From Bryoerythrophyllum caledonicum (lineage: Eukaryota > Streptophyta > Bryopsida > Pottiales > Pottiaceae): a stretch of 64,000 nt of DNA. Positions within the stretch are counted from its first letter, which is position 1. Every line of letters starts with the position of its first letter. The position numbers and the translations under genes were made by a program. Below are positions 21,755-62,284 of this stretch, in pieces. The DNA lies in contig OZ020517.1 in assembly GCA_963971425.1 (NCBI GenBank), forward strand, positions 2,978,501-3,042,500, given 5' to 3'. A model generated the notes under the pieces. The model had not been told where the DNA came from, made no database searches, and saw only the letters and a program-made list of their open reading frames with translations.

Positions 21755-21767
21755 TAATTTTTCCACA
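21755..21767. repeat. left target-site duplication of LINE-C
   Basis: TAATTTTTCCACA here is repeated exactly at 62,272-62,284, 40.5 kb away, and brackets the whole nested block. It abuts the GAA (TTC in sense) tail on this side. Confidence 0.85.
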
Positions 21768-21788
21768 GAAGAAGAAGAAGAAGAAGAA

Positions 21789-21925
21789 CGCCGGTCTCCG
21801 AAGGAACTCGCGTGAATAAAGTGTCTGTTTGTTCCACTACTAAGACCATGCCCACCGGACAAGGAATTAGTATGCTGGAACTACTTCCCCCTTTCGAGGG
21901 TAGACACTATGTAACAAGTAGCCAA
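21789..21925 (-). repeat. LINE-C 3' terminus
   Basis: Contains the family 3' block (in + orientation GTGAATAAAGTGTCTGTTTG through CGAGGGTAGACACTATGTAA). The hairpin is broken: CGCCGGTCTCCGAAGGAACT no longer pairs fully with CGCG, unlike other copies. Confidence 0.85.
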
Positions 21926-22090
21926 AAACCACAAAGTGGTGGTGGCACGAGCGTTTGTGCCATCAAAAGAGTAACAAGGAAGGAGGAAGGGGGGAGAAGG
22001 GAGGGGAGGAGAGAGAGAGGAGGAAAAGATGGAGAGGAGGGTGTGTTTCGCAATGTCAGGGCTTTAAAAGATAAAGTAAAAGGGGTAATT

Positions 22091-24318
22091 TTATGGGGGG
22101 TCTTGTGTATCGGGAAGGGCTTGGTTATTTTCAATTTTGCGTTTATGTAGAAGGATGGACATAGCATGTTGTATAGCAATGATGTTAATATTTTTGAAAG
22201 TGTTTGTAATTGTATCAATAGGAATTTTGAAGGTATCTTCTAGGATTTTTATAGATGAGATAAAGGTGGTGGCACGAGCGCCGGCTGTGATTACCATAAG
22301 GGGGTCTACTTTCCATCCGAGGACAGTGATGTCATCAATAAGGGGTTGGTATTTATTGATTTTGTTTTCGATTGTTTTTGGGGAGAATTTGTCATTACAG
22401 TATGTAAATTCGATGAATTGAATGGTGTAGTCTTGGCTTATGTGGTCGGGTGGGGGGTCATTGTATGGTAGGCCTCTAACGCAGAGTACGTCCGGTTTGA
22501 GTCGAGCATTGAAATGGCATTGTTTAGTTTCACATGTACATGGGAGTAGCCATGGTGGAACCGTATTTTCCTGTGGGTTGTTATTAAAGGTGTCGGCATT
22601 CATGAGGATAAAACATCTCGATTTGTTATGGGAGGTGATTAATTTACGGATTTCCCATGTTTGTATGGATCTTTGGCATTTTTATGCAATTTTTCACGTC
22701 CTTCTTTGGCTAGTTTATCTGTTTGTTCGTTTCCATAAAAATTGGCATGGGCTCCAACTTTGTGAAGAGTTGTCATTTGTGTTCGGTTTTGTAACATTTT
22801 GACCATGGACATTAATATAGTTTGGTCGGGGTGGCTATTGTAGAGGGTAGAGTGTGTTATTTGGGTGTTTAGTAGATAAAGTGCATTGATACAGTCAATG
22901 AATATATGCCTAGGTTCATTGCTGTATTTTATTGTTATGATTTGTAGTGTTTTGTGTATGGCCATAAGTTCTTATCTAATGATGTTTTGTAGTCCATGAA
23001 GTCTTTTGGCTAATTTAATTTCTTTCATAGGGTTGTATATGCCATTGCCAGCTTTTTCTTTGCGCCAGTTTCCCGGGCTGACTTGTTCAGGTGGTTTGAA
23101 GGAGCCATCGGTATAGTAGCTATGTGCCGGGTCAAATTTTGGTGAGGTTAGAGTTTGGTAGATTGGAAGGGGTGGAGGTATTACAAGGTAATCTAATGTA
23201 TTATTGATGTAGTTTAGTTTTGACCATTTTTTGCTACGGTTTACGGGGGTTTGTATAGTTGATGGTGGGGCCATTTTTGTGTACAGGCAGTGTATGTTTA
23301 GAGAATTTGCTATCGAGGTGAGTTCGGCAAGTTCTAGGGTGCCAAAGGTTTGATTTTGGTGGTGGACACATAGTATTTGTAATGTAGATGGTTCAATCTA
23401 GGGCTTTTTTAGCTCGGGTGGAATAGTAGGTTCTTCGTATGGAATTGAGTCTACTTCAATAGTGCAATGATATGGAAGTCTAGGAATGGGCTTGATTGTT
23501 GGTTAAAGTTTTGGTACCAATTTTTTTCCGGTGTAATAATGAGTGTAGATGTGTGGTGTGGGTCACTTTTGGCAGCAAGGCGGGCCTAGTGTAGTGCTTG
23601 TTGAGTTTCCTCCTCATTGTGAGAGTGAGCTGTACCATTACCGACCCATTTATAGTCAAAGGCCTTTCCTAAGGAGCCAAATATTTTATCTCTTTCAATG
23701 GGTGAGTAGAATTTTTTTAATTTGGTGGAACATGTGACGGGGGAAGAGAAGTATGATTGTTCGATGTTGAAGGATGAGATTAATGAGTCTAGAATGGGTG
23801 TGGGTATTGTGTATTGTGCACTTTTTGGGGGATTATTTTTTGGAATGCGGTATTTATATCTTTGGTATAGCAAAATTAGCTCGGTTTCCAATGGTTGGAT
23901 TGTTGGTTCGATGTTTGTAGGAGTTTGTAGTTTCAAATTCTATTGGTTCCATAGCTATTGGAGTTTAGTAGTGGGAATAGTGTGTAAATGCCGACCATTT
24001 TCTTCATGTAGATGGGGTAGATTGTTCTCTATTTTGATTGTGTTCGAGGATGTGAGAATGTCGTTTTCGGGGTTACATTCCATTGTATAGATGTTTAGGA
24101 GTGGAATGATTATGGATGGAGTTACGGATCTTGAGTCGTGTAATTGTTTTTGGGGGTGGTGGGCTTGAATGATTTCCAAGTAGAATTTATTTTTAATTTT
24201 TTGATAGTATTGTTTTAATTTTTCGGTGTTATATGTGGAGGTATTATTGTTGTGTCTTGGAAAGAGGTTTCTTTAAGGAAGCCATTTGTTGAATGTATTG
24301 TTGTTGTGTTGCCATTGG
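22091..24318 (-). pseudogene. LINE-C ORF2, C-terminal part: unknown domain, RNase H, CCHC region, restriction-like endonuclease
   Basis: Reading leftward on the minus strand: the unknown conserved domain (FSSPVTCSTKLKKFYSPIER then DKIFGSLGKAFDYKWVGNG, about 23,765-23,560), the linker VNRSKKWSKLNYINN, RNase H (SYYTDGSFKPPEQ; DCINALYLLNTQI; VGAHANFYGNEQTDKLAKEG), then the final endonuclease-like part (CTCETKQCHCNARLKPDVLC, QFIEFTYCNDKFSPKTIENK, VITAGARATTF). Frameshifts or stops break it near 22,640-22,690, 22,970, 23,280-23,580 and beyond 23,940. The segment carrying the CCHC motif is mostly deleted here, between HKNAKDPYKHG and MNADTFNN. No active product is possible. Confidence 0.85.
24304..24318. 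repeat. left target-site duplication of LINE-A
   Basis: TTGTGTTGCCATTGG is repeated exactly at 51,040-51,054. It is LINE-C ORF2 sequence (encoding QWQH on the minus strand), which proves that LINE-A inserted into LINE-C. Confidence 0.88.
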
Positions 24319-26621
24319 AAGATGGGGACGATGTCTAAGAGTAGCTAAGAGCTCCGTTTTTTCTGGTTAGGTGCACAAAGAAGTTAGTCTCTAGGAAGAG
24401 GTGTGAGTGCAACGAAGGTGACTGGATCCGTTGCATACCCCGCTCATAGCTTAGATCCGAGGCAATAGTGGGCTTTGAGAGTGGCGCTTGTGTTGGGAAG
24501 GGGTAGTGAAGGTTAGACCTAACTCTGGCATACGAACTTTGAGCGATCTAAACGTAGATCGGAGTGTGGGCTGACCTGAAAGCACTTGGACCCTGTGTTG
24601 GAATTCGATCTAAATTCTTAGAGCTCAAATTCGATATACAGGTGTAGAAATAGCTTGTATTGGTTGTAACGCCCTAAGCCCACTTAGGCTTCTTGTAACT
24701 GCTGCCCCGACCCAGAAACCACTTCACATACGATATGAAGTCCACACACAGACCCAAGATAGCAGTAGCTCACACAAGAGACCGTTTACCAGGACAAACG
24801 CGAGATCAACAGAGCGCACACAGCCATGAGAGAACACAAGATCTGGAGAGAGTAGCCAACCAACAGCGAGAACGAGATCAAACTTTGCAACAAACATTAG
24901 ACACAAAGGAGCACGCCATCAATACGAAACCAAGCAGCCAGCACTCCACCTCTGGAGTGCCCAGGCCCCAGGTACGATCTGACCTTACTTTATTTTATTT
25001 TATTTTTTGTTTGTTTATTAGTGTTTGATTTGTTTGCACATTACAGTACATCAGTGGTACAAAGAGATCTGCACAACACTTACACACTAGTAGCTACCTT
25101 GGACATCTTACATATCACCACACTCACACACACTACATGTAGAACACCACAAGATCACTATAACAACACGCACATAAAGCTCCACACTAGAATTCTAATA
25201 GAAAATCCTATTAAGGCCGTGTGTGTAGATCGCACGTGGAAGCGTTGGAAAATTTTCCCAGATCTGGATCTACCTACACATCAGCAACAAGGATATACGA
25301 CATCAGCATTGAAGCAAACGACTCCTTGACAAGAGTGCACAAGAACACGTCGGAGCGGCCAACAAACCCGCAACTCTATCCACATCACAACAAGACCTCA
25401 TAGCAAGGACACAACAACACCAGGAGGCAACAGAAACGAACAACACGAGGCGAAGAGCACCTTCAGGCTGGAGAACACTGCAACAAGGAGTAACCCGCAG
25501 CAAGAACACATCAGGGAGCAACCCACATCAACATTACAACAAGGCGAGACACAAGACAACGCACCTCTAAATAATCTACATCCACATCTTCGTTTTCCAC
25601 CTCCACAACTCCTTCTACTACTCTCTCCCCTGTCCCCACAGATCCCCTCTTCCTCCTCCCACATCGCACACCCCCCTCTCACCCCCACCCACCTCACTTC
25701 ACACCCCACCCTAACTCCCCCCTTGCCCTCCCACCTCGCCCCTCCCTGCCCTCTCCTCGGCTCACCCGTGCTTCCCACTCCTTGCCCCCCCTCCCGGCCC
25801 TCTTCCTTGCCGCCCTCCTCTTCCCTGCTCACCCCCCCTCCAACCCCACCCCCACCACCCTCTGCCCTCCCCTACTCCTCCAACAATCCACGACCAATCT
25901 CCTTCCCCGAGCTGCCTCTCTCCCTCGCAATATAGACTCTCTTCCTCCCGGTACAGACTCTCTCCCTCGCAGTACAGATTCTCTCCCAACTGCCTCTCTC
26001 CCTCGTAGTATAGACTCTCTCCCTCGCAATACAGATTCTCTCCCTCGCAATATAGAAACTCCCCCTCCCTGACTTGGAACCCCCCCTCCCCGATCTGAAA
26101 TTCTTCCTCCGCGAATTCTGATCCCCCCTCCCCAAACTCTGGCCCTCCCTTCCCGAACCCTAAACCCCCTGCTCCAGAACCCGTTCGCGAGTAAGCCCTC
26201 GCCCGTAGACTATAACCCTCCGACTCCCAGTATAGAACCTAAACCCCCGCCCCCTCAACACAAACAGCCCGCAGCGACCTCCCCATGCGCAGTGACCTTC
26301 CCCTCTCTAGACCCCGACCTTCCCTACGACCTTAGAAAGGAGAATAACGACCTACCAAGCCCCCCCTGCGACCCTAGAAAAGAGACTAACGACCTTCGTA
26401 GCCCATCCAACGACCTCCCCATAAGCCTTAGCGACCCCCCAACCAACCCCAGAGACCCACCAAATACACATAGCGACCTACCAACCACTAGGAAAGACCC
26501 CCCTGCCCCACACAACGACCTCCCCTCCTCCCACAGCGACCTCCTTTTCCCCCACAACTTAGTTTTAGTCACATTCAGGCACATGGGAAGCATCAAAAGA
26601 CTCCTCAACTTCAAAGAGAAG
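24319..26621 (+). promoter_or_regulatory. LINE-A 5' leader, C-rich in its second half
   Basis: This untranslated leader precedes ORF1 and is likely to contain an internal promoter, as expected for a 5'-complete LINE; no specific promoter motif was identified. From about 25,600 the sense strand becomes strongly C-rich, with few G. It holds two repeat-coding blocks: a 21-bp tandem repeat at 25,915-26,062 and DLP-rich codons at 26,292-26,560 (separate entries). A CAGATCT-type motif recurs in the leaders of all three LINEs. Confidence 0.55.
25915..26062 (+). repeat. 21-bp tandem repeat encoding a DSLPRxT heptad
   Basis: Units resembling CTCTCCCTCGCAATACAGATT recur about six or seven times. One open frame reads them as SIDSLPRNTDSLPRNI, a seven-residue repeat. 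LINE-C has an analogous but different 63-bp repeat encoding CDLPFQDSD in its leader, which suggests that DLP/SLP repeats are a recurring property of this region. Confidence 0.65.
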
Positions 26622-28148
26622 ATGGACGAAGACACAATGGTGGTGGAGAAGATACCAAGGCAAACCGAAGAAACCTCAACCACAAGCAAGAGAATGAAGA
26701 ACGTAATGATAGAAGAAAACCCGTCGCACATCATCCAACCGATGTGCATTAATTTCAAGTTTTGGATGGGGTATCCCACCATGGAGGCTATTGCAATTGA
26801 AGAATGACTTCAAGAGCTTTATAGTGGAGAAACCGCCGAGGACATGATAACAAAAGGATTGAAGGTGGAAGAGGCGGAGGAGGCAAGCGTGGCAAAGGTG
26901 GCTTTTCCTCACATCCTGCAACTACTCTATCCAAGCACAAGAAATGGAGTGGAGGGACTACATTACAACATCACCCAACTCCCCTTCGACATCACCATCA
27001 ACACTTCCACAGGGTTTGGCTCTCGATTTTCACATTGCAATTCACTTTGAACCCCCTTCCTCCCAACTCATGCATGATGAAATCAAGATAATGGTCATAA
27101 AAAGACTAGAAGTAATGGGTATAGAACTTGGCAATAATCTCATAGACCCCATTTCAATCCAATCCTTGAGTGTCAAAAATGCGGGAAAGAAGGGTGTATA
27201 GGCGGGAATAATCAAACTACACTTACTAAAACCCGAAATTGATGGTATCATGATGCTTAAGGGGCTTAGACTCTTCATCCTTAAGCTAGACGGTCACAAC
27301 ATCATTGGAAAGGTTTGTAAGAGTTACCAAAACATTGCTAGGCATTCTAACGTCTCTGTCAAAGTGAAGAGTGACAATTTGAAGGGTATTTCGGCCAACA
27401 CTCTTTTCAAGGATGTTGTCTTAAATAGTTTTTGAAAGGGGCAAAAGTTTGAGATTACCGGAGTCCAGAAGAGCATTGATGACACCCATGCATTCATCAT
27501 AACCACCACACCACAACAAGCGAAGAAGATACAACTACATCAAGTCACCACACACCACGAGGTCATACAAGCTAAGCACATCACCGGAGGGAAGATATCA
27601 CAAGAGACTAAGGCAAAAAGGATGCCTTAACCCTAACCCTCTCTCCTCAACCTATCTTAATGAGTGTTTATGATACAAGTGATGCCATTCGCAAGATTAT
27701 TGGTGATACTAACACTAGATCAATTTGGTTCCACAAAGAATGTGGAACTAGGCATAATGGAAGTGCTAACGTACATTGTGCTATCCCAATTGTTTACAAG
27801 CAATTTGTAAACAAAACCTGTGCCGTGGGAGGATACCTTGTAGAGTTTGCACGACACCGGAGGAATCTAGAAGGAACGGAACCCCCCTCCGAAGCGCAAG
27901 TGAAGGCATTCGGGTTTGATGACGTCAACGCCGCCATGGTCAACACGGTGGAGACCTTCAAGACACAAGAACCCTCATCCAACATCTCTAAGCAAGATGT
28001 GTTGAAGATCGTGGAGTCGGTCATAGAAGAAAGTAACAAGAAGATGAAAAAGGAGACACGTGAATATGCCGATAAAAAACATGAAGAATTGAAGACTCAA
28101 ATGATGAACATCCAACAAGCAATGAGCGCCGCACTTGCTTCAATGTAA
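26292..28148 (+). pseudogene. LINE-A ORF1 with N-terminal DLP-repeat extension
   Basis: An open frame from 26,292 runs through DLP/DPP-type repeats (NDLPSSHSDL, NPRDPPNTHSDLPTT) into the conserved ORF1 start near 26,622 (MDEDTMVVEKIPRQ). ORF1 continues as INFKFWMGYPTMEAIAIEE, a stop at about 26,805, LQELYSGETAEDMITKGLKV, a frameshift near 27,000, RRM-like strands around KLHLLKPEIDGI and LRLFILKLDGHNIIGKVCKS, stops near 27,199 and 27,433, then SIWFHKECGTRHNGSANVHC and a charged C-terminal helix (VIEESNKKMKKETREYADKK) likely to form a coiled coil. Such ORF1 proteins usually bind element RNA. The family is recognised only by comparison among the three copies; a two-RRM-like fold is a guess. Confidence 0.75.
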
Positions 28149-28850
28149 GCCATCACGGGAAGTATGGCTACACCTATGATTGAAGACAAGCCGCCAAACT
28201 TGTAGACTTCAAAGACCACAAGGTAACTACCATTGACCATACAATATACCAAATACATACACTCAAGGCTAGTATAGATTACGGATACTATACTGATACA
28301 TTATATGTAGTAGTGTGCAAACATACACCCGTATATGGAGCGTATAAATACTATATTACATTTTATACTCAATACAAATACATCATCCTATACAAAGGAG
28401 AATATATATACACATACTCGAATACATATACTAATACAACTACCAAAATACATACAAATACAAACTCTCAAAACATACATACAAATACATGTACACACAC
28501 AAATAATGATACTACCTACAATATACACACAGACATAAACATAAACACAACATCCACCACATACGAAAAAAGATGCAAAAATACAAGCCAATATATATAC
28601 ATTAAGACTAACACAAACCAAGATGCACAAACAAACACCAAACTAATTAACAAAAACAACATACAAAACAATAAACCAAAACAAAACAACAAACCTAAGA
28701 AAATCAATCCAAGGGAAACCCACACAAAAGAAAGAAAATATAACACTCACATCCTTCAACACAAAGATAAAATCAAAAACAAAACAAAAAAATATATTAG
28801 ACAAACAAAATTGAAAAAAACATATAACCATTAAACATAATAACAAACCA
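28149..28850 (+). repeat. LINE-A spacer between ORF1 and ORF2, ACATA/CA-rich
   Basis: A biased tract rich in ACATAC, ACACAA and AATACA motifs separates the two ORFs. It opens a long low-complexity frame (Thr/Asn/Tyr/Lys) in a different phase from ORF2, which I regard as an artefact of composition. Equivalent CA/TA-rich spacers occur in LINE-B (44,130-46,030) and LINE-C (55,200-56,160). Confidence 0.65.
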
Positions 28851-28862
28851 CCACATTATAAA

Positions 28863-28910
28863 CTACTACTAATACTTGGAGGAGACATAGAAACCAACCA
28901 AGGACCTATG
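28863..28910 (+). other. 2A-like motif at the ORF2 N-terminus of LINE-A
   Basis: The ORF2 frame reads LLLILGGDIETNQGPMPNV. The canonical 2A ribosome-skipping motif is D-x-E-x-N-P-G-P; here Pro is replaced by Gln (NQGP). LINE-B has GDVETNPGL and LINE-C GDIKTNLGS at the same place, so each copy differs from the motif at a different position, consistent with decay from an ancestral 2A. Confidence 0.7.
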
Positions 28911-31900
28911 CCAAACGTACTAAAAAGACACCCAACACAAGACAAAAAAAATGCCAAAATATATTTCATACCAAATACAATAAAATTACAACTGGAATAT
29001 AGACATATTGCCCAATCATTTGCACCTTTACTAAAATCCACACATACACTACACCTATTATACACCAACACACAACCACACATTATCCAATATATACAAC
29101 AACAAAATGAATACCCCTCACCACATATTCTATATGCCATAGTAACTACAATCCACCCACACATAGACGAATGTAACCTCCTATTAAACCAACAAAGCCC
29201 AAATATAACTCAATGGACTAATGCACTACTAAACTCCCTTGCTAACCTACAAAACCCTCCCGAAAGACACATCAACACCCCACACCCTTATATATCATTC
29301 ATTGAAAATAACCAAAATATTATAAAACACAAAACATCAATACATAAAGAACTATATGATTTTATACACAATCATCGTATACCACTATCACAAGATACTA
29401 TAAAACAAAAATTTCCATACCTTCCCAACAATCTAATTACTAAATCACTAAAATGTCTCGAACAAATACCAGAATATACCCACCGACCTCCCCCACCCCC
29501 TTACCTACTTCCACAAAACCAAAACAATAATCCAAACCAAGAAAATACATATATAATCACATGGAATGCCTCCTCTCTAAACACCGCCCTTCCTAGCTTA
29601 CAAACTTTGGTCACACATACAAACACACCGCCAGCCATTATAGCTATACAAGAAACAAAACTAATCGCCACAAAATCCACAAAATATATACAAAATCTAT
29701 TTCAAGACTATAAACTCATTTTCAACAATACACATGCACTTACAAGATGTATTCAACAATGAAAACCATACACACCGGGCCGCGGTGGTCTCCTTACACT
29801 AATACATAAAAAATATGCTTTCCCGGGCAACATCAAAAAAATCCCCACCCCAATGCGCATATCTTCTTACCTTCAAATAATCAAGATCACTAATTATCCA
29901 CTACAACCATGGCTAGTTCTTCACATGTATATGCCATCTCGCCCCGAAGATACTAGATTTATTAATGACATACAAAACACTATTACATCCCAAATAAATA
30001 ACAACCCTAACCACGCATATATACTATGCGGAGACTTCAATAGAGACATAGCATTAATTGGACGCCAAGATGGAAACCATAACACCCCTCCCCAAACCAT
30101 AGACCACCAATGGCGCCACTTCACAAAAAACTTAAACCTTTCTTACATAAAAACCGATACACAATTTTCTAGACAAGGTGGCTATAATTATAGCGATTGG
30201 AGTCTAATAGATGGATTTTATATAAATACCAACAACAATACACAATACACCTCTACAACAAACAAAGATGTTATTCTCAACTCGGACCACTCATCTATAC
30301 ATTCACACATCCCAAATAACACCTTAATTAATAGAACCCCGACAATTCTAAAAAATGACACAATACGCATACTCAACTCCATTCCAAAAGGCAACTTAGA
30401 AGAATTCAACATAAAATTCTTTGAAGAACAATCCATGCCAATAGACTCCCTCATAAATACTCTTGAAAACAACAATCAACTATCACATGTACAATGGCAA
30501 GAAACATGCCAAATCCTAGATACACTCATCAATAAAATCTCCAACACACTAGAACAAACTTGTAGAGCCCACCCAATACCCCAAATGACAAACAGAACAT
30601 CTCAACAAGGAGGCTATCTACCCCGCAAACTCTCTAAAACTTGGAAACAACATCTTACTACATACCATGTTATACGAAAAACTATAAGAATTGTAAAAAA
30701 TAATTCTCAATGGCGTAACCACCCCATATGCAATGAACTACTAACTCTACAACATACCCAAATTCCCACCCCACAGCCCCGAGATATGCCCAATGATACA
30801 TGGATAAAAGATATCGCACTAATTGCAAAAAATGCTAACATACAAGCCAGAAAAATAACCTCAAAACACACCAAAGATAACATTTAAAAAGCCATCTCAA
30901 AATATAGACAATAATACGAAATCCCCTAAGAAAACTAACAAAAAAGTCTTTAAGAACCTAGAATCTCCACCACTAGATTGTATCACAGACCAACATAATA
31001 ATATTTTAACTAGCCCCGAAGACATTGCAAATGAAATATTCAATCAACAAACAAAAAACAATAGACCCACAGTAACAACATGTAATTACCCACCACAACA
31101 TTCAATTGAATGTACATGTGTTGTACCCCAATAGCCATGGCATGACCTTGATGGATTTACCTTAGACAAACGAGGTGAACCAGAAAACCCACTACATACG
31201 TACTTCAATAGGGCCACATACGACACATGTCTTAAAAACTTGGGCAACAACAAAGCTCCAGGTCCATATCGTATACAAAACTCAATACTCAAAAATATGC
31301 CTCCAAGATTTCACAAACTCCTATTCTTTTTCTTTTCCCACTGTTACAAACAAAAACAGATACCAGCTTTGTAGAAATCAAGTGCAACAATTTTAATTTA
31401 CAAGATAGGCGACCCGTCCATACTATCCAACCATAGACCAACTACATTAGCGAATACAATATACAAATTCTTCACTAGTACACTTACCTACATCCTATCC
31501 TCATACGGCGAAAAATTTAAAATCCTACATGATAGCCAAGAAGGCTTCAGAGCAGAAAGAAGTACCGCTAGACAAATACAAACTATAATAGCCGCACTAG
31601 AAGACGCAAGGTTTACAAACCAAGATATATACATACTATACGTTGACTTCAAAAATGCCTTTGGCTCAATCGATCATGCTAGACTATTAGCAACAATGAC
31701 GGATCTTGGATTCCCAAAAGATGCAACTACACTTGTTGGAAACATCTACTCCGAATCATCCACTTACTATACTGGAGAAACACTTCGGAAAAACAAAACC
31801 TATACCCATTCAAAGAAGAACTATACAAGGAGATATCCTTAGCCCATATCTATTTATTATATTCTTAGAACCACTACTTAGATGGCTTGAACGAGGGAAT

Positions 31901-34240: not shown

Positions 34241-34482
34241 ATCAAACCATCGGTACCATAGAACAACTGGCAGAACTCACCTCCATAACACACAATTTAA
34301 ACATACACCAATTACACACACGAATGATCCCACCCACACCTATACAAACCCCCGTTAACCGAAGTAAAAAATGGTCAAAACTAAACTACGTCAACAATAC
34401 ATCAAACTATCTTTTCACACCGCCCCCCCTCCCAAGTTATCCAACTCATACCACCCCGAAATTTAACCCCGCACATAGTTAT

Positions 34483-34494
34483 TATACCGATGGA
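34483..34494. repeat. left target-site duplication of LINE-B
   Basis: TATACCGATGGA is repeated exactly at 49,328-49,339. It encodes YTDG, the first catalytic motif of LINE-A's RNase H. The final A could equally belong to the GAA tail, so the duplication is 11 or 12 bp. Confidence 0.88.
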
Positions 34495-45798: not shown

Positions 45799-45849
<51 letters not shown>

Positions 45850-50786: not shown

Positions 50787-50904
50787 AACTGCTCCCACTC
50801 ACCCTCAAACGTCTCTCTCTTTCAACTTCGAACGACACTTTCAACTGCTGGTAGGTTACTTTCATGTCCTTGCTACTTGTTACTTATGTGTTCTTGCTAC
50901 GGGT

Positions 50905-51039
50905 TACTTAGTGTCTACCCCCGAGAGCGGGAAGTAGTTCCATGCCACTAATTCCTTGTCCAGTGGGCATGGTCTTAGTGGTGGAACGAACAGACACATT
51001 TTTTTCACGTCGGCTCCTTCGGAGCCGACGTTCTTCTTC
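50905..51039 (+). repeat. LINE-A 3' terminus with hairpin and short TTC tail
   Basis: Runs from TTAGTGTCTACCCCCGAGAG through GGTCTTAGTGGTGGAACGAA and the perfect stem CGTCGGCTCC-TTC-GGAGCCGACG to three TTC units. This is the shortest tail in the set, against more than 2 kb in LINE-B. Confidence 0.87.
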
Positions 51040-51054
51040 TTGTGTTGCCATTGG
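51040..51054. repeat. right target-site duplication of LINE-A
   Basis: TTGTGTTGCCATTGG, identical to 24,304-24,318; LINE-C ORF2 resumes here. Confidence 0.88.
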
Positions 51055-54000
51055 CATAAATATCTTGTATAGGTATTTTGTATACCGTTGGTACCTATAT
51101 GTTGTATATGTTCATGGTGTATGGTGTTATTAATAGGGTATATGGTGGGATTTTGGGGGATAAATGTTGGGGGACGGGGGTGGTATGGGTGTGAGGGGTT
51201 GGGAGGGTGGATTGGTGGAAGGGTAGTTCTTGGGAGGATGTTGTTGTTGATGGTGATGAATGGGTCTTGGAGTATGTAGGAGTATGGGTGTATGTTGCAA
51301 GGGGTATCACATGTGGTGGGGCATGTTCGATGGCAAAAAAATTGTTTGGCAACATTTAGGGCACTCTTGATTAGTTTGGATGGGGTAAAGTGGAAGGTTT
51401 TGAAGTCTTCATTATTCATGACGTGTGCCGTTTGGTAAAGTAATTTGTTTTAATTTGAAAATATTTTTTAAGAGGAGTTTTTGTAAGAGTTTTTGGGAGA
51501 GTTGGGTGTTGAGTGTGTTATGGTTTTGTGTTTTTTGACACCATAATACTCTTAAGGTGAACTTTAGCTACATGTTTTAATAGGAAAAATGTACGAGTTA
51601 TTGGTGATCTTATACAATTTTTTTTTTATAATTCTAGATATATTTTTGGCACCGCCATATTGAGCAAGAACATAATGAGTTAGTCCGTAATATATTTGTC
51701 CGAGCCTACTTTTGTCATTTAGATCATTTTGCAATTATTCCCCTATACATCGGAGATAAGCATTCTTGAGGGAGAAAGCTTCGAGTCCAAATAGGTTATG
51801 TGGGAGTTGGGTTATTGCGTTTGACATGCATTTTGGCATACCACAAATGGTTTTTTGTATGGCTATAATCTTTTGATCAAGTTTTTGATAGCTGGCATAG
51901 AATATGGTACAACGTAGAAGCTGTATGCTACACCTAGGCGTATTACGGTGTCAACCATTTTAATTTTTTGTTTCATAGTGGCCGGACATGTTGTTAATTC
52001 TTTGCATTGTTTAATGAGTTTTGAGGTAGTAGCGTGAATTTGGATTTTCCATTTTAGAAAGGGAACAAGATTTGTGCCTAGGTATACATATGATTCATTT
52101 TGGTGTAGTATGGGGATTTGTTGACCACGGTAGTTGATGTTAGAAGCTTGCATTAGGGCTTTAAATGCAGTTGGATTCATTTTGGATTTATTTGGACATC
52201 CAGTAGCAGCGCATTTTGGGATGCCTACATCCATACCAGTCCATTTACAATATCTATCTATTTTATCAATTTGTGTTTGTAATGATTTTATTTTGTTAGT
52301 TATAGTAGCAAGGTCATCGGTGTAGGCGGCGGAGTTTGTGGTGATTTGGGATGTACCAAAAATGTATCCATTGTTGCCTTGCTCTAGCCATCTAAGTAGT
52401 GGTTCTAAAAATATAATGAATAGGTATGGACTAAGGGTGTCTCCTTGTATAGTTCCTCTATGAATGGGGATAGGCTTAGTCTTTCCAAAGTGCTCACTCG
52501 TGTAGTAAGTAGATGATTGGAAGTAGAGATTTCCAACTAGTGTAGTTGCATCGTTTGGGTATCCAATATCAGTCATTATCACTAGTAGTCAAGCGTGGTC
52601 TATAGAGCCAAAGCCGTTTTTGAAGTCAACATATAGAACATATATGTCTTGATTTGTGAATTGTGCGTCTTCTAGTGCCGCTATTATGGTTTGTATTTTC
52701 CTAGAGGTACTTTTCTCTGCTCTGAATCCTTCTTGACTATCGTGTAGGATTTTAAACTTTTCACCATATGAGGATAGTATTGAGGTGAGTGTACTTGTGT
52801 AGAGTTTATATATTGTGTTGGCTAATGCAATTGGTCTATGATTTGGAAGTATTGAAGGATCTCCTTTTTTGTAAAGTAAAATTGTTGCACTTGTTTTCCA
52901 TGAGACTGGTATTTGTTTTTGTTTATAGCAATGACATAAGAATAGGAATAGTAATTTATGAAATCTTGGGGGCATGTTTTTGAGTATGGAATTTGGTATA
53001 TGGTCTGGCCCTAGGGCTTTATTTTTTCCGAGGTTGCGGAGACATGTGTCGTATATGGCTCTGTTGAAGTATGTACGTAATGGAATTTCAGGTTCGCCTT
53101 GTTTGTCTAAGGTAAATCCATCTAGATCATGCCATGGATATTGGCGTACTGCACATGTGCATTCGATTGGGTGTTGTGGTTGGTAGTTGCATGTTGGTAC
53201 TGTGGGTCTATTATTTTTTGTTTGTTGGTTGAATATTTCATTTGCAATGTCTTCCGGGTTAGTTAGAATGTTATTGTGTTGGTCATTGATACAATCTAGT
53301 GGTGGAGATTCTAGTTTTTGAAAAACTTTTCTGTTTATTTTCTTGGGGCTGGTTTCGTGTAATTGTCTATAGTTTGAGATGGCTTTTTAAATTTTTTCTT
53401 TGGCGTATTTTGTAGTTACTTTCCCGGCTTGTATATTGGCATTTTTTGCGATTAGTGAGATGTTTTTTATCCATGTATCATGGGATAGGCCCGGTGGAGG
53501 TGGGGCATGAATTTGGGTATGTTGTAGAGTTAGTAATTTGTTACATATGGGATGGTTACGCCATTGAGGGTTATTTTTTACAATCCTAATAGTTTTTTGT
53601 ATTATATGGTATGTATCTAGGTGTTGTTTCCATGTTTGAGAAAGTTTGCGGGGTAGATAACGACCTTGTTGTGATGTTCGGTTTATCATTTGTGGTATTG
53701 GTTGGGCTTTACAGGTTTGTTCAAGTGTGACAAAGATATTATTGATAAGTGTCTCTAGGGTGTGGCATGTGACGTGCCATTGTGTTTGAGAGAGTTGGTT
53801 ATTGTTTTCTAGGGTGTTAATGAGAGAGTTAATTTGCATGGAGTTTTCTTCAGAAAACGTTGGGTTGAATTTTTCTAAGTTGTCTTTTGGGATGGGGTTT
53901 AGTATTCGTATAGTATCATTGTTTGTAATAATAGGGGTACGACTAGTTAATATGTTATTTGGGATGTAAAGTTGTATAGGCAACTGATCCGAGTTGAGAA

Positions 54001-55198
54001 TGGTGTCTTTGTTTGTTGTAGAGGTGTATTGTGTAGTATGATTAGTATTTATATAAAAGCCGTCTATTAGGCTCCAATCGTTGTAGTTATATCCGCCTTG
54101 TCTGGAGTATTGTGTATCAGTATTTATGCAGGTGAAGTTCAAGTTTTCTGTAAAGTGGCGCCATTGATAGTCTATGGTTTGGGGGAGGTGTTATGGTTTC
54201 CATTTTGTCAACCAATTAAAGCTATGTCTCTGTTGAAGTCTCCACATAACATGTAAGTGTGATTAAGGTTATTATTAATTTGAGTTGTAATAGTATTTTG
54301 TATGTCTATGATAAATCTAGTATCATCGGGATAGGATGGCATATACATATGAAAGATTAGCCATGGTTGTGGTGGTTGATTAGCAATTCTAATTATTTGC
54401 AGGTAAAGTGATATGTGCATTGGAGTAGGGATTTTTTTGATGTTACCCGGGAAAGAGTATTTTTTTTGTATTAGTATTTTTATGTATTGGCCTATGTATA
54501 AAGTCCAAACATATGTATTTGGACTTTATACATAGGCCAAACATAAAAATACATATGTTTGGCCAAACATAAAAATACATATGTTTGGCCAAACATAAAA
54601 ATACATATGTTTGGCCTATGTATAAAGTTGTATAATTCTCTATGTATTGATGTGACGTGGTTTATGGTGCTTTGATTTTCTTCAAGAAATGTTGTATAAG
54701 GGTGTGGAACATTGATGTGTCTTTCGGGTGGATTTTGTAAGTTAGAGAGAGTGTTTAGTAATGTGTTAGTCCATTGAGTTATGTTTGGGTTTTGTGCGTT
54801 TAAGATGTGGTTACACATGTCTATGTTTGGGTGGATAGTATTTATAGTATGTGTGATGATGGGCGTGTATTTTGTTGTTGTATATATTGATCAATGTGTG
54901 GGTGCATAGTGCTGTGTAGTTGGTGTAGTATGTGTGCGGGTTTTAGCAGAGGTGCAAATTTTTTAGTGATGTGTCGATATTCCGGGTGCAGTTTGATGGT
55001 GTTGGGGATTAAATATGTTTTGGCATTTTTCTTGTGTGATATGGGGTGATGTTTTAGCACATTTTGTATGGATCCTAGGTTAGTTTTAATGTCTCCACCT
55101 ATTAATAGTAGGATTTTGTGGTGTATGTTTTTGATGTTATGTTGTTTTTTGGTTAGGTCATTTGTGTGTATTTTTGTGTTGGTGTTTTTTGGAGTCAT
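51055..55198 (-). pseudogene. LINE-C ORF2, N-terminal part: decayed 2A motif, truncated APE domain, reverse transcriptase
   Basis: On the minus strand the frame begins MTPKNTNTKIHTNDL and reaches KILLLIGGDIKTNLGSIQNV (decayed 2A) and NVLKHHPISHKKNAKTYLIP. The APE domain then lacks its first half: after SIHRELYNFIH comes a palindromic filler (54,490-54,620), and the sequence resumes at the equivalent of FPGNIKKIPTPM. CGDFNRDIALIG and the later APE part (NYNDWSLIDGFYINT; SDQ in place of SDH) remain. The RT is clear: HDSQEGFRAEKSTSRKIQTI, LYVDFKNGFGSIDHA, GTIQGDTLSPYLFIIFLEPL and SAAYTDDLATIT (Thr in place of Ala/Val). It ends at the LINE-A insertion. Stops and frameshifts are frequent. Confidence 0.87.
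54490..54626. repeat. tandem palindromes replacing part of the LINE-C APE domain
   Basis: Three units of CCAAACATAAAAATACATAT then GTTTGG, each nearly self-complementary at its ends, are bordered by a repeated TATGTATAAAGT on both sides (about 54,492 and 54,617), preceded in each case by GGCC. They replace about 430 bp of ORF2 present in LINE-A (29,363-29,800). The cluster looks like a small MITE or templated filler at a deletion. Confidence 0.7.
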
Positions 55199-56160
55199 TT
55201 GTGTATGGGTATGTGCATGTTTGTATGTGTGTGTGTATAAATTTATATGTATGTGTGTGTGTGTGTATGTTAGTGTGTGTGTGTATGTGTATGTATGTAT
55301 GTATTTGTGTGTGCATATGTAGAAGTGTTTTTATGTACGTGGATGTATGTATGTGTAAGTATATGTATATGTGTTGTAATAGGCATGTAGTTGTGGGTGT
55401 AGGAGTTTGTGTATGACTAGTGTGTATATTGTATGTTCTATGTTTGTATTTTGTGTTTTTGTATCGATGGTCATACAATTTTTTGAATTGGGTATGTTGT
55501 CTTTTATCATTATGATATGTGTGTTGTAGACATGGAGTAGTTCTTAGTTTTATATTATGTTCCTTTATTTTGGCATTTGTATAGGTGTTTATAGAGGTAT
55601 TTATAAAGGTATTGTTATTTATGTTGTTATTTGTGTTGGTATTTGGGGTAGTATATGTGTTGGTATATTTGCCAATATTTGTATCAATTATTATACATAT
55701 AAAGATTTGTTTGTTTGTTTATTTACTTTAGTATTTATTTTGGAGTGTGTATCAATATTTTTGTATGTATTTGTATACTATTTTGTACTAGTCAATATGT
55801 ATTTGGTATAATTTATGTATTTATTTGATGTTGTAATATAGAATGAGTATAGGCTATATGTATTGAGGTATGTATATCCTATGGGGTATACTTCTACGTA
55901 TACTGCCCTATATTTTTCCTTATATTGTACCATGTAGACTACCTTATCCACCTTGGTCAATACACTATATTCTACTATGTATGCAACTTTATAAGCTATC
56001 AAGTATTCTACCTTGTATTGCCTTCTATTGTAGTGGTTGCAAAATGTGTGGAGCTTGTATATAAGAAGGGGTGGACTGTGTATAATACCTTTTACCTTGC
56101 GGTCTTCAATCTTCACATGTTTGACTACCCATCTTCAATTCTTGGGGTGGTCATAACTTT
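55199..56160 (-). repeat. LINE-C spacer between ORF1 and ORF2
   Basis: TGTG/TATG-rich on the plus strand (55,200-55,470) and AT-rich with TATTTGT-type motifs further on; equivalent to the spacers of LINE-A and LINE-B. No gene. Confidence 0.6.
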
Positions 56161-56162
56161 GG

Positions 56163-57149
56163 TGATGGCTTGCTAGGATGCAAGGGCCGTACTCATTGAT
56201 TCTTGAATGGTGATCATTTGGGCCTTCAACTCATCATGCTTCTTGTCCGCATACGCTTGGGCCTCTAGTCTTAGTTTTTTGTTGTTTTCTTCCACCTTGG
56301 ACTCCACAATGGCAATGATGTCATTCTTTGTGAGGTTGTTTGTTGGCTCTTCCATCTTGAAGGCCTCCACGGCGTTAACAATGGCTTTGTTAACATCGAA
56401 GAATCCAAACTCCGCAATTTGATCCTTGGTGGGTGGCTCAACTCCATCAAGACTTCTTCGGTGTGGTGCAAAATCCACGTATTGTCCTCCCATCTAGATA
56501 ACTTTACCCACAAATTTCCTGTAGATAATAGGATTGATGCAATGGAAGTTAGTACTACCATTGTGCCTAATTCCATCATCACGATGAAACCAAATGTGGG
56601 TAGCATTTCCAACTCCCATGATTTTATGGATTTCTTCACTAGTATCTACCATGTTCATACGAATAGGCAATGAGGATAAGGTTAGGGTAATGGCATCCTT
56701 CTTTGCCTTACTCTCACGATTACTGCCATTTGATGAAGCTCCATCATTACTCATAGGTTGTAAAAGCTCATGGTTGGTTGCCACTTTGTGGAGCTTGATC
56801 TTTGCCGCTTGTTGGGGAGTTGGTGCAATGATAAAAGCATGAGACTCTTGCTTGAGTTTCTGCACACTTGTTACTTCAAACTCAAGCCCACAGTTAAAAC
56901 CATTTTGGAGGATCTCCACAAAAAGATCATTTGTGGACAAGCCTTTAAGGGATTCACTTTTGATTTTGGTAGAGAGGTTAGAGTTTTTTGAAATATCATG
57001 ATAGGCTTTACATACTTTGCCACGAGCATATTGTTTGTCTAGTTTTAGGATAAAAGGTCTAAGATCTTTGAGAAGTCCAATGCCATCTATCTCGGGATTA
57101 TGCAAGTGTAATTTAATTACACCCGCCCAAACCCCCTTTTTCCCCACAT
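56163..57149 (-). pseudogene. LINE-C ORF1, C-terminal part
   Basis: Begins at the border of element H with SLKNVGKKGVWAGVIKLHLH and continues LRPFILKLDKQYARGKVCKA, LKGLSTNDLFVEILQNGFNC, THIWFHRDDGIRHNGSTNFH and YRKFVGKVI, then after one break YVDFAPHRRSLDGVEPPTKD and a charged helix (VEENNKKLRLEAQAYADKKH). It matches LINE-B ORF1 along its length. A stop/frameshift near 56,494 splits it. Confidence 0.8.
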
Positions 57150-57161
57150 TCTTCAAACTCA
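57150..57161. repeat. left target-site duplication of element H
   Basis: TCTTCAAACTCA is repeated at 59,430-59,441 in LINE-C ORF1 sequence. Confidence 0.75.
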
Positions 57162-59429
57162 GGAATGCTAGAATGTAAGCAGTGAGCATTGAGCAATGAG
57201 CAGTGAGCAGTGAACAGTGAGCCGTAGCAATTTTTTTTCCAGTTGGGCACCCTATAACCACAGATTTGGGATGATTTACAAGAAATAATTTTACATTGTG
57301 ACCTATTTCCGTGGTATGAAAAAAGTTCAAAATGGGAGAAAATTGGATTTAAGAACCCGGAAATAAACTATTTGGAGGATATTTGGATGAATGTAGATAG
57401 ATGGATGAATGTAGATGAATGATTGCTCAGCTTATAGTTTTTAAAAATATAGCAACTTCTAAAATATTAGTAAAAAAAAGAAAAAAAGAAAAAAAGAAAA
57501 CTAGCCGAGAAGCTCCTTGGTACCAAGAAACACCTTGAGGGCAAAATAAAACAAAATTTAAATTTAAAATTAAAAAAAACCAGCCGAGGGGCTCCTCAGT
57601 ACCAAGGAGCGCTTTGAGGGTGAAACCAAAAAAAAAAAACCAGCCAAGGGGCTCCTCGGTATCGAGGAGAGCCCTGAGGGCGAAAAGAAAAAAAAGAAAA
57701 GAAAAAGTAAAAAAAAACCACCACCACCACCTGCCAAAGGGCACCTCGGTACCGAGGAACGCCCTGAAGGCAAAATAAAACAAACTAAAAAAAAACAAAA
57801 AAACAAAAAAAAAACCAGCCAAGGGGCTCCTCGGTATCGAGGAGAGCCCTGAGGGCGAAAAGAAAAAAGAAAAAAAGTAAAAAAAAACCACCACCACCAC
57901 CTGCCAAAGGGCACCTCGGTACCGAGGAGCGCCCTGAAGGCAAAATAAAACAAACTAAAAAAAAACAAAAAAACAAAAAAAAACCAACCAAGGGGCTCCT
58001 CAGTACAAAGGAGCGCCCTGAGGGCGAAAACCAAAAAAAAAAACAAAAAAAAAACCACCACCACCACCTCTCAAACCGAGGGGCACCCTGGTACCAAGGA
58101 GCGCCCTGAGGTCGAAACCAAGGGAAATCAATTTTTTTTTCAAAAATACAAAAAATAAAATAAAAACTATAATTTATTTTAAAATTGTCGCCCATCAAGA
58201 AAAATTCTCCTTAAGGGGTTATCCAAATTGCCCATTTGGCACTTCAAACTTCTCCGTAAATTTAAATACAAAAATTCTTGCTTCCACTACAATTTTACAT
58301 AATTTTACAATTCTTGCTTCCACTACAATTTAAGTGAGGGGAAAAATGGCACCTTGGTACCAAAGTGCCCATATGGCACTCCAAAATTTTATGTAATTTT
58401 GAACACTAAAATTCTTGCTTCCACTGTAATCTTCATCGCAGTGGAGCATTAGGCAAACGCAAAGCGTGGGTGAACTGCAAACACTTGTATTATGTATATA
58501 GATTCTTGTGCAAGGCAAATCTGGAGGACGACAAGTTTATACATGCACCAAGTCTTAGTTTCAAATTTCAATGACGTACAGGTCCTACTCCGCAATAGTA
58601 ATCTCTAAGTTTTTTTTGTTCTGGTCATAGTAGTTTTGGCAAGTTATTGCCTCTTTTATAGTTTAACTTTGAAACTACACAAAACATTGGAGGGCCAAAA
58701 TGGCTCCTTGGTACCGAGGAACCCTTTTGGGCTTCACAAAAATCTTGTGAAGTTCAACAATTTTCACTTGTAGAAATCGTAGAATTTGTTGAGGAATTTT
58801 TTTTGAAACATGTTTTACCTGTTGTTGGGAACGGGAATTAAAAAAAAATTAGACAATTTAAAAATAAATAAAATGGGCCTATTAGGCTCTTTGGTACAGA
58901 AGAACCTCTTTTGACTTCTTTAAAATCTTGTAGTTCAGTGATTCATCTTCACTCTTGAAAGGTATATTTTTTTATGCGGCATGAATTATTAAGCACTGTA
59001 AACTAACATAGTTTTTGTTTCCGATTAAATTTCATATCGCTCATAGAGAAATTTTCGTAAAACTAGATGAGATTTTGAATGGATGCCCTAAACTTCATTC
59101 ATCCATAAACTTTGTCCATCCATAAAATATATCATCCAAATTTAGACATCCATTTAATGACGAGCAATAGTCAACTCCATATTGAAGTTTGGTTAGGTTT
59201 GTCCCTAAAATTCAACATTTATTTTCATGTGAAGCAATTTCATAGCCCATATGTAAGTGAAAAATCAAAGAAGACATTTGTAAACCACGGTAATAGGTTG
59301 CGATAACTACTTTTTAAAGAAAATTTCAAATATAATTTATAGGAAATTCCTATAATTAGGATATTCCTATCCATTTTAATCCTCCCTCCTCACTGCTCAC
59401 TGCTCACCGCTCGCATTCTAGCGCCGTTG
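57162..59429. mobile_element. element H: inverted-repeat DNA transposon inserted in LINE-C ORF1
   Basis: About 2.27 kb between 12-bp target duplications. The ends are inverted repeats: GCTAGAATGTAAGCAGTGAG on the left (57,167) against CTCACCGCTCGCATTCTAGC on the right (59,403-59,422). Both continue into clusters of GCAGTGA/TCACTGC. The outermost 5-7 bases do not match. No transposase frame is visible, so it is non-autonomous. The long TSD and subterminal repeats fit a MULE-like or other DNA transposon best. Inside is a tandem array of GGTACC-centred palindromes. Confidence 0.72.
57500..58110. repeat. tandem array of GGTACC-centred palindromes in element H
   Basis: About eight units of the type GGGGCTCCTCGGTACCGAGG then AGCGCCCTGAGGGC are separated by A-rich spacers; the larger period, marked by ACCACCACCACCACCTGCC, is about 171 bp (57,719 and 57,890). 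Looser relatives continue at about 58,347, 58,700 and 58,890. Each unit can form a stable hairpin. Confidence 0.8.
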
Positions 59430-59441
59430 TCTTCAAACTCA
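59430..59441. repeat. right target-site duplication of element H
   Basis: TCTTCAAACTCA, identical to 57,150-57,161; LINE-C ORF1 resumes to its right. Confidence 0.75.
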
Positions 59442-60010
59442 TGCAAAGGATAAAAAACTACCTTTTTTCCGACTTCAATCTCCATGAATTTTAGCCTGTC
59501 AACCACCAAAGCTTTGACATCATCATGCATGAGTACTTGGTTAGATAACTCAAAATAAATTGAAACATGAAAGTCAAGGGCAAGACCGGTGTTTTCATTA
59601 ACCGGGATGTCAAATGGGATTTGTGTTATGTTGAAGTGTTGTCCAATGACTCATTTTCTTGCGCAAGGATAAAGGATTTGAGGAATTCGTGGAAATGCCG
59701 GAGTTGCTAGGGTGATTTCTTTGGCCTCCATTTCTTTGATTCCTCTTGTCATCATGTCGGGTATGGACTTATCATTGTGTAGCGGTTCGAGTCCTGCTGC
59801 CTTGGCCATATCTTCCATAACTTGGAACCCTAGCCAAAATTTGAAAGAAAAGACATCGGGATCAAGTGTTAGCACCATACCTTCATCATTGGAGCTCTTC
59901 TTTTTCTTGATGGAGGAGGATATTTCGTCTTGGCTTGTTGTGGATGCAATGCTTGGATTTCTCTTAAATTTTCACTGGATGCTTCAATCTCCATATCGTC
60001 TCCGTACATA
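59442..60010 (-). pseudogene. LINE-C ORF1, N-terminal part
   Basis: Starts near MYGDDMEIEASSENLREIQA (about 60,010) and changes frame at about 59,875 to MVLTLDPDVFSFKFWLGFQV. It then gives EPLHNDKSIPDMMTRGIKEM and FPRIPQILYPCARK, a stop, and readable GLALDFHVSIYFEL-type sequence up to element H. The block around IPDMMTRGIKEME is uninterrupted here, whereas LINE-A and LINE-B have stops nearby, which shows that those stops are secondary. Confidence 0.75.
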
Positions 60011-62271
60011 AGAACTCGTCTGCTGCCCCACTGGTCGATATCTATGTTGTACTCATACACTTGTTTAGGCGAGTTAGGATATTTTGAACTATATTTATTG
60101 TGTTTTGATTTAAATTCTAGTTTGGAGCACTCGATTTTTTTAACACTGGTGCAACTAGATAGAGTTTTTGTTGTTTTTGTTAGTTGTAGGAAATATAAAT
60201 GCAAAACACAAGTGGTAAGGGTGAAGTAACTTACCTTGCTTGCCGAGTCGGTGTGGGAGGGAGTTGGATTGCTATGGAAAAAAGGGGGTCACTATGTGTG
60301 GGAGGGGAGGTCTCTACGGGAGGAAGGGAGGTCGATATCGTTTGTACGGAGGTTGCTATGTGGAGGAGGAAGGTCGCTATCGAAGGGAGGGAGGTCGCAG
60401 GTCTTGTGAAGAGGGTCGCAGTATATGATAGAGGGGTCGCTATCCTGGAAGGGGAGGTCGCAGGTCTTGTGAAGAGGGTCGCAGTGTATGATAGGGAGGT
60501 CGCTATCCTGGAGGGGGAGGTCGCAACTCGGGTTTGGAGGGTCGCAATACAAGTTTTGGGTGTCGTTGCAGAGGTTGGAAGTCAGGGAGGGAGGAACTCT
60601 GTTGACCTGCAAGGAGGAGAGCTGTGGGGAGTTACTGCGAGGGGCTGCATCGGCCTGCGGGGGGGGGGAGCTGTGGGGAGGTTCTGGGGGGATGGCGACC
60701 TCCTGGCAGGGAGGAATTTGGAACTGGGAGGGGCGGGGGAAGAGGGAGGGTTTGGGAGAGGGAAGGGCGAGACAAGGAGGGGCGGGGAGGGAGGGTTTGG
60801 GATAGGGAGGGGCTAGGGAGGGGGGAGTATACTAGGGTGGGGAGCGAGAGGGGGGCGGGGGGAGGGAGGGGGATAGGGAGAGAGGGGATGGAGGGGGGGG
60901 AGAGGGACATGGAGGGAGGGGCGAGATGGGTGTTGGTGGGGGGAGGGAGAAGGAAGGGAGAGGGGGGTTGTAGAGAGAAGAGAGAGGGTGGTGAAAGGGG
61001 CTGCAGGTGGTGAGTGGAGGGAGAGGAGGACAACCTCTGGGAGAGCTTGGGGAGGGAGATTTGCAGGTTGTCGTATGGTCTTGAGGTGTTGTATTGATGA
61101 CGTGGGTTGTTGTCTCTTATGTTGCCGTGGATCTCTCCTTGTTGCGGTGTTGACGTGAGTTGTTCTTTGATGTAGTGTTGCTGTGGGTTGCTCTCTGCTC
61201 CTGCATTTCTGTCTTTTACAGTCTTGGTGCGGATGTCACCTTGTATTCTTGTGTCCTTGTTGTAAGATCTTGTTGCGATCTTGATGTGGATAGAGTTGGT
61301 GCGGATTTTTTGGCTGCTACGTTGTGTTCTTGTGCCCTCTCTCTCTGGTCTTGACTGTTTCGGTGCTGATGATGTGTTGATCTGTTGCTGCTACGTAGGT
61401 TGATGCAGATCTGAAAAAATTTACGAGCGCTTCCGCGTGCGATCTACAAACACGAGCTTGGTGAATTTTTCTATTAGGGTTTTAGTATGGATCTTTATGT
61501 GTGTGATGTCATGGTGAGATTTTGGTGTAATGTAGCTAATGTGTGTGGGTGTAGTGAGGTACGTGGTGTTACTAGAAATCAGAGTGTCTACTGCTGAAAA
61601 GAAATGGAGACGGATAGAAATGGCCTGATTTGACGAGTTGTTGTTGCCTTGAAGTAGATCTTTGAGGCGTGTTGTGTTGAACTCCACTCCAAAGGTTGTT
61701 CTGCGGTATTGGTCTCTAGATCTGGTGTACAAGTTTCTTAAATGAATGATATTAGATTTGTTGTGTAAAATGTGTATGTATCTAAAAGAGCATGGTGGCA
61801 GTGTGAAAAAAACAACGGTGAAGTAAGAAGATAGCAGAAACGTGTAAGAGGGGTAAGAGGTAGCATGTAAATGGTGAGGGACGTTGATGTGATGGTAGCA
61901 ACGCTCTTGTCTTGGCTTCTTGCCGCTCTCAATGGTGGTGTTGAAGTCTGGATTGGAGAGGGGCGACAGGACTCACGGAGGAGGCGTTCAGATTTGGTAT
62001 CCCCTCATTAGATCTAACCACTCAGATAGGCCTTCAACAACTCTTCACAGTTTACCTCTTGCAGATCTAGTGTTTTTGACGTCCCTTCTCAACACATACA
62101 ACTAAAAGCCTCCCCTACCCCTCAGATCTGAAGCACACTTGGGACATGCAATAGGGCCAACAACCTCCTGTTGTCTGTGCCTTCACTCTCTGAGACTAAG
62201 TCCCTTGCCCCCTCCTAACAAGAAATTTCGGAGCTCTACTCAGCCATCCTTTTCAATTGCTCCGAACAAAC
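60011..62271 (-). promoter_or_regulatory. LINE-C 5' leader
   Basis: C-rich in sense (G-rich on the plus strand, 60,270-61,040), including runs such as GGGGGGGGGGAG near 60,660. It contains a 63-bp tandem repeat in two copies (60,391-60,453 and 60,454-60,516). A frame through it reads CDLPFQDSDPSIIYCDPLHK, repeated, like the DLP-rich block before ORF1 in LINE-A. The 5' border at 62,271 aligns with LINE-A and LINE-B starts. Confidence 0.55.
60391..60516 (-). repeat. 63-bp tandem repeat in the LINE-C leader
   Basis: Two adjacent units beginning GTCGCAGGTCTTGTGAAGAG with about four differences. On the minus strand they encode a 21-residue repeat with CDLP(L/F)QDSD and CDPLHKT. Confidence 0.8.
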
Positions 62272-62284
62272 TAATTTTTCCACA
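62272..62284. repeat. right target-site duplication of LINE-C
   Basis: TAATTTTTCCACA, identical to 21,755-21,767; it marks the right border of the nested block. Confidence 0.85.

Follow-up and report, generated by a model that had tools for sequence, protein, structure and literature searches.

Stacked insertions of a large LINE family bearing a 2A-like motif and a PCIF1-like domain in the moss Bryoerythrophyllum caledonicum

A 64,000-nucleotide stretch of the genome of the moss Bryoerythrophyllum caledonicum (GenBank assembly GCA_963971425.1, contig OZ020517.1, forward-strand positions 2,978,501 to 3,042,500; hereafter the window) holds a nest of three copies of one long interspersed nuclear element (LINE) family, termed C, A and B from the outside in. 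We find that this nest is real and that self-nesting by target-primed insertion fits all three copies, while a short fourth insert, D, most likely entered the lineage of B before B itself jumped, as judged by comparison with a sister copy. Stacked retrotransposition by a large plant LINE family, with D most likely carried in with B, is thus a reading of the whole that we hold with good confidence. On sequence evidence, the family to which A, B and C belong consists of ~10-12-kb LINEs with a predicted R2-like reverse transcriptase (RT), an APE-type endonuclease, RNase H, a PCIF1-like domain, a 3' hairpin, a (TTC)n tail and a 2A motif.

LINE-C, the outermost copy (21768..62271, minus strand), is flanked by a 13-bp target-site duplication (TSD), TAATTTTTCCACA, at 21755-21767 and 62272-62284. 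LINE-A (24319..51039, plus strand) lies antisense within the chromodomain-like coding region of C, between 15-bp TSDs at 24304-24318 and 51040-51054, and LINE-B (34495..49327, minus strand) lies antisense within the RNase H motif (YTDG) of A, between 12-bp TSDs at 34483-34494 and 49328-49339. D (44585..45534, plus strand) is antisense in B, with 16-bp TSDs at 44569-44584 and 45535-45550. An earlier note on this DNA had claimed four such perfect duplications, and all four pairs are letter-perfect where it placed them (13, 15, 12 and 16 bp for C, A, B and D), that of B measuring 12 bp. It had also claimed that removing the inserts rejoins coding sequence in C and A, and in-silico joining of ~100 bp of flank per side confirms this: coding is restored in C, which then reads TRYLCQWQHNNNTFNKWLP with the join at TRYLCQWQHNNN, and in A, which reads HSYYTDGSFKPPEQISPG with the join at HSYYTDGSFKPP. 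Window self-comparison and the protein pieces reveal A, B and C as three long collinear LINE copies, with lengths, by coordinate subtraction of the inserts and the long tail, of ~11.9 kb for A, ~11.5 kb for B and ~11.5 kb for C (a fifth insert, in C, was also subtracted).

The 5' ends of these copies were compared with the genome (437 Mb in 894 contigs) using boundary queries of 100 bp of flank and 500 bp of element; the best candidates were scored, so that the counts are lower bounds. For A, 32 of the 40 non-self rows begin at query positions 106-113 (the other 8 at 1, 1, 8, 99, 120, 120, 127 and 163); for B, 27 of 39 begin at 146-158, and the remaining 12 match only the A-type flank, up to the B junction, and stop short of B; for C, rows reaching the 5' half begin at 114-125, apart from a single row that begins at 200. 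We call A, B and C 5'-complete because other copies share their 5' boundary. Extra nucleotides lie between the TSD and this common boundary in each copy, ~10 in A (24319-24328), ~54 in B (49274-49327) and ~23 in C (62248-62271), and several other copies have GGAAAA(C)-like sequence at that 5' position. The earlier picture of full-length, 5'-complete LINEs nested three deep holds for A, B and C, which reach the family 5' boundary; D, with its 92 bp and tail, is not a full element. That such self-nesting should be uncommon is unsupported for this family: dozens of copies, as a lower bound, reach the 5' end, and where the 5' flank was retrieved for 36 A-type copies, 7 (6 independent) show LINE sequence that comes within ~21 bp of the insertion point. 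These 36 flanks are nearly all different, so insertion is dispersed. Over the main ORF2 (open reading frame 2) block, identity is 73.5% for A/B, 80.0% for A/C and 73.8% for B/C, a pairwise difference of 20-26%, with blocks of at least 120 bp spanning 66-85% identity. The expectation that divergence should fall with nesting depth fails here because A, B and C belong to different subfamilies, and their pairwise identities do not track depth.

D, which the earlier note had counted as the fourth level of the nest, comprises only 92 bp of LINE 3' end followed by a TTC tail of 286 perfect units (~860 bp, 44677-45536). A B-type sister on another contig, L084 (L numbers denote loci of the family), is 94% identical to B over 3.8 kb and carries D at the identical site with the same TSD and flanks (97.7% over 86 bp), its TTC tail having 9 units. 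Since D is shared by B and L084, it need not be the last insertion; of the strict order C, A, B, D once proposed, the nesting of C, A and B fits and the last step fails. Among seven other B relatives fetched, no D is found in the four that cover the site (L085, L087, L088 and L090); L086 is deleted there, and the site lies outside L089 and L091. The most likely course is that an ancestor of B received D, which then travelled in B's RNA, in which case the TTC tails would have diverged since, to 286 units here and 9 in L084. Weighing against this are the distance of the four empty relatives, which are only 70-77% like B around the D site, and the possibility that B is the parent of L084, a direction that the ~6% difference over 3.8 kb does not settle.

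If B were indeed the parent, the strict order could hold: D would have landed in B once B was already within A, and L084 would be a later daughter made from B's RNA. The shared site and TSD are compatible with either direction, and the perfect 286-unit array in the window favours insertion in place; B's ORF1 and 2A, however, are damaged, whereas in L084 the ORF1 frame is open over 642 codons and 2A is intact (a contrast that could in part have arisen by decay after copying), the D tail of L084 has just those 9 units, and L084 is without most of B's ~54-nt 5' extension, its match beginning at query 149. We consider in-place insertion of D unlikely. Much the same can be said of the proposal that D is a short interspersed nuclear element (SINE) with a borrowed LINE 3' end, as opposed to a 5'-truncated LINE; its short body with LINE-type hairpin and tail is what one would expect of such an element, but that body matches B's 3' end along its whole length, and no tRNA gene was detected in 21000-63000, so that we think a SINE origin improbable. 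Finally, the nest might be an assembly artefact in which repeats of one family were stitched together, and a family with thousands of candidate places (7,974 at first look) and with long arrays of (TTC)n is indeed hard to assemble; an artefact would nonetheless have to account for a perfect TSD at each junction and for coding that is restored when flanks are joined, and we regard it as very improbable. With D carried in by B as the preferred reading, the case illustrates that nesting alone is no proof of insertion order, as an inner element may arrive inside its host.

As to its proteins, the family has the makings of a LINE: an RT and an endonuclease, no long terminal repeats (LTRs), TSDs, a 3' tail and some 5'-truncated copies. 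The APE endonuclease lies upstream of the RT; in A (29916..30299, plus strand) it matches PF14529 with E 1.6e-5 and 25.2 bits against a cut-off of 27.4, and PF03372 reaches 25.3 bits, above its cut-off of 24.5, in the open relative L080, falling below the cut-off in A and B. The RT of A (31766..32197, plus strand) matches PF00078 with E 6e-13, and that of L080 reaches 1.5e-26 in Pfam. Searched against the PDB at E<=0.01, the RT profile finds five sequences, three of them named R2 retrotransposon proteins; the matches include 9nl3 (1.3e-26), 9dou (1.9e-26), 9nl2 (2.9e-26) and 8gh6 (3.5e-9), and 8gh6 and 8ibw, each named 'reverse transcriptase-like protein', we take to be Bombyx R2. Membership of the L1 clade was considered and dropped, with no L1 protein among the matches at E<=0.01 in the PDB, which should include L1 ORF2p. 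RNase H matches PF00075 in B (38100..38519, minus strand; E 2.1e-12) and in A (E 3.6e-14), and NCBIfam matches are confined to RT and RNase H and are weak, falling well short of cut-off.

The PCIF1-like domain, found in B at 38937..39329 (minus strand), scores above the PF12237 cut-off (E 1e-10) and has AHPH in place of NPPF. In an alignment of 19 family members (A1), 18 match PF12237 (PCIF1_WW; best 2.7e-12) and the 19th is without the segment; a genome scan places 150 of 150 scored rows above cut-off (the best 150 of 2,614 candidates), compared with none of 14 control genomes of unspecified composition. The segment aligns weakly to 6irx and 6irv (E 0.04 and 0.073), AHPH occupying the NPPF position. 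Of 30 loci, 27 have AHPH exactly, the other three have AHLH, AHSH and AHAH once each, and none has NPPF; AHPH also recurs in all six further, partly divergent copies L074-L079. A weak chromodomain-like segment in A (33202..33363, plus strand; YLCQW...YNKWLPQR) corresponds to PF00385, matched by 10 of the 19 A1 members at a best E of 0.0036, the first member scoring 16.7 bits, short of the cut-off of 25.1, and Polycomb being matched in the PDB at E 0.22. The C-terminal region, in B at 37133..37945 (minus strand), is defined by motifs only (C-x2-C-x9-H-x4-C, KRHN, KPD, E and KxxKY), which are conserved in the family; its profile finds nothing in the PDB at E<=10, and we take it, by its likeness to the R2-type CCHC and KPD/E arrangement, to be a candidate restriction-like-endonuclease-like region.

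A 2A-like motif, GD(I/V)ETNPGP, precedes the ORF2 methionine. It is decayed in A (28878..28907, plus strand, GGDIETNQGP, directly before the ATG at 28908), in B (44083..44112, minus strand, SGDVETNPGL, directly before the ATG at 44082) and in C, and it is intact in L031-L033, L080 and L084. These five loci carry in frame the 2A/StopGo motif given as (D/G/C/N)(V/I)ExNPGP in a recent survey (PMC12846837), and ribosome skipping itself would be the putative function. The clearest case is an ORF1-less copy of ~9.9 kb, without the ORF1 region of A (L080:2192-9961 and L081:1-2276), in which the leader, 2A and ORF2 share a single frame of 3,087 codons free of stops. The same frame length recurs in 33 of 150 scored rows (the best 150 of 2,614 candidates, compared by length and not by sequence), which suggests a recently spread ORF1-less subfamily. 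The leader of L080 also has T/N-rich repeats and, upstream of its intact 2A, a further 2A-like copy in degenerate form (GGDINTRP); L033 has a similar degenerate copy. We suggest that ORF2 would be made with the leader and freed by 2A ribosome skipping at NPG|P. An alternative is that the string has no translational role and that ORF2 starts at the ATG directly after it, as might be expected from its decay in the window copies and from the open leader of L084, which runs into 2A without a methionine. Such a view sits poorly with the 1,395 exact matches to the 2A pattern in the genome, set against 0 for the reversed pattern (LINE membership was not checked site by site), with the varied synonymous codons among the sites listed, and with the frame of L080/L081, which from its first methionine gives a leader of 270 codons into 2A and continues for 2,341 codons after it; a string without function seems to us doubtful, though a possibility of some weight.

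At the 3' end, A carries a terminal hairpin (51008..51030, plus strand) before its (TTC)n tail, and this 3' end is recognisable in 27 of 30 loci, B itself included. Over 29 rows, 92.9% of stem cells are paired, with both-side changes at 2 of 6 pairs, and the covariation is equalled by 4 of 500 shuffles. The case for the hairpin is weakened by the number of pair types, reached by 324 of 500 shuffles, by the both-side changed pairs, reached by 109 of 500, and by the exclusion from the alignment of L022 (right arm missing) and of L027 and L028 (stem sequence the same as L026). The tail of B (34493..36841, minus strand) is ~2.35 kb of degenerate (TTC)n with GAT variants, read as GAA on the plus strand. 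In the 30 loci (L001 being B), the first TTC run has 3-9 units in 17 others and 40 in L015, and 11 are without a run of at least 3; the 286 perfect units of D and the ~2.35-kb tail of B are very long compared with the 3-9 units elsewhere.

C, A, B and D alternate in strand, and outside the window 9 of 10 independent nested copies are antisense to their hosts (two-sided binomial 0.021), namely L042, L055, L058/L059 (as one), L071, L073, L006, L020, L080 and L034/L035 (as one), with L038 in sense. Adding A, B and D of the window gives 12 of 13 (0.0034), and removing L034/L035, which are favoured by the query's own flank, gives 8 of 9 (0.039). The sense strand of A ORF2 is 40% A and 27% C, the four window TSDs begin with T in the sense of the inserted element, and of the 18 other loci whose tail could be counted, 16 have T directly after it. 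Given this A/C-rich sense strand and the initial T of the TSDs, insertion may favour older LINEs on their T/G-rich antisense strand, and such a preference would explain the alternating orientation; we infer, weakly, that T/G-rich strands are favoured as targets. Several points detract from this: the antisense sample is small and counts copies only where the LINE match nears the junction, weaker flank matches that were short or did not reach the junction were dropped (L039, L063, L066 and L069 antisense; L050 and L053 sense), and a broken last TTC unit would also leave T after the tail, so that the target preference is weakly based. The A-type copies of L034 and L035 interrupt an antisense LINE almost exactly where A interrupts C; a possible insertion hotspot was set aside, L035 containing a run of N.

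The proposal of four inserts was incomplete, having overlooked a repetitive element of 2.27 kb in ORF1 of C (57162..59429, no strand assigned), with 12-bp flanking repeats, TCTTCAAACTCA, at 57150-57161 and 59430-59441 and subterminal inverted AGCAGTG-type arrays. C ORF1 is interrupted between 57159 and 59468, and further copies of the insert's left edge occur in the genome, with 36 of 39 non-self rows beginning at query 46-52 and the other three at 81-88; a join across the insert yields two frames, which is not a clean restoration of coding. Tandem ~85/170-bp repeats with palindromic CTCGGTACCGAGG cores lie inside it at 57472-58121. Outside the nest, the window holds two 5'-truncated fragments of the same LINE family, one at 11011..11731 (plus strand) with hairpin and (TTC)n and, by eye, a suggested ~12-bp TSD with one mismatch, and one at 19735..20388 (minus strand) with no clear TSD by eye. 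Host gene pieces are of GST/Tom37-type (metaxin-like; 3115-3966), cyclophilin (8850-9608) and glycosyltransferase family 92 (17021-18073), and Rfam gives no match at gathering scores. The genome also yields 75 rows of GRAS matches (best 1.3e-144; 0 of 14 control genomes), in keeping with a plant host, as large families of GRAS proteins characterise land plants and their near relatives.

Taken together, C sits within other DNA, A within C and B within A, the latter two antisense to their hosts; each of the three has its perfect TSD and ends in (TTC)n, and the repetitive element has likewise inserted into C. At each LINE insertion, the ORF2 protein would nick the target, the nicked end would pair with the UUC tail, and the RT, aided by the conserved 3' hairpin, would copy the RNA by target-primed reverse transcription.

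LINEs bearing 2A have reportedly been described by Heras in 2006 and Odon in 2013 (L1Tc of trypanosomes; APE-type LINEs of multicellular organisms), as cited in PMC4981915 and PMC12846837. The moss family resembles these elements in a 2A-like motif in frame with LINE proteins and would differ in host and RT group. With the R2 group it shares an R2-like RT, by the PDB profile matches, and, in its motifs, a CCHC and KPD/E-type C-terminus, but it is dispersed, with 12-16-bp TSDs, an APE endonuclease and RNase H, where R2 elements are site-specific and without APE. Dualen is a dual-endonuclease LINE of green algae with APE, RT, RNase H and a restriction-like endonuclease (PMC4640811), and RandI has microsatellite 3' tails (PMC3747384); on these descriptions, the moss family is alike in its APE endonuclease, RT, RNase H, microsatellite 3' tail and possibly a second, restriction-like endonuclease (motifs only here), and is set apart by its 2A motif, PCIF1-like and chromodomain-like segments, (TTC)n tail and plant host, and by an ORF1 in A, B, C, L032, L033 and L084. 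PCIF1/CAPAM, the cap m6Am methyltransferase, shares the profile match but has the motif NPPF (PMC8868631) where the LINE family has AHPH. Chromodomain retrotransposons such as chromoviruses and Chronos are LTR elements (PMC5348765); a chromodomain-like segment in a polyprotein is common to both, but the element here is non-LTR and its match lies below the Pfam cut-off. In the open-licence literature searched, we found no report of a PCIF1-like domain in a LINE or of 2A in a plant LINE.

By itself the nest makes a neat case study; the LINE family is the more useful part. It offers an apparent, putative natural case of a plant element using 2A ribosome skipping (the 2026 survey reports no evidence of such skipping in plant viruses; PMC12846837) and a PCIF1-like domain within a LINE protein, its altered active site being conserved; the 33 open copies of equal length (3,087 codons) are material for testing the 2A and PCIF1-like functions. 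We tentatively raise a wider view, which we think somewhat less than probable: that this is an undescribed, very long plant LINE lineage with two endonucleases and a ~2,340-residue main protein freed by 2A skipping, in which a PCIF1-type domain would have turned into a conserved non-methylating module (AHPH), perhaps binding the element's own capped mRNA, a chromodomain-like reader would steer insertion, and an A/C-rich sense strand would make the family's own antisense a preferred landing site, so that the genome may be buffered by self-nesting.

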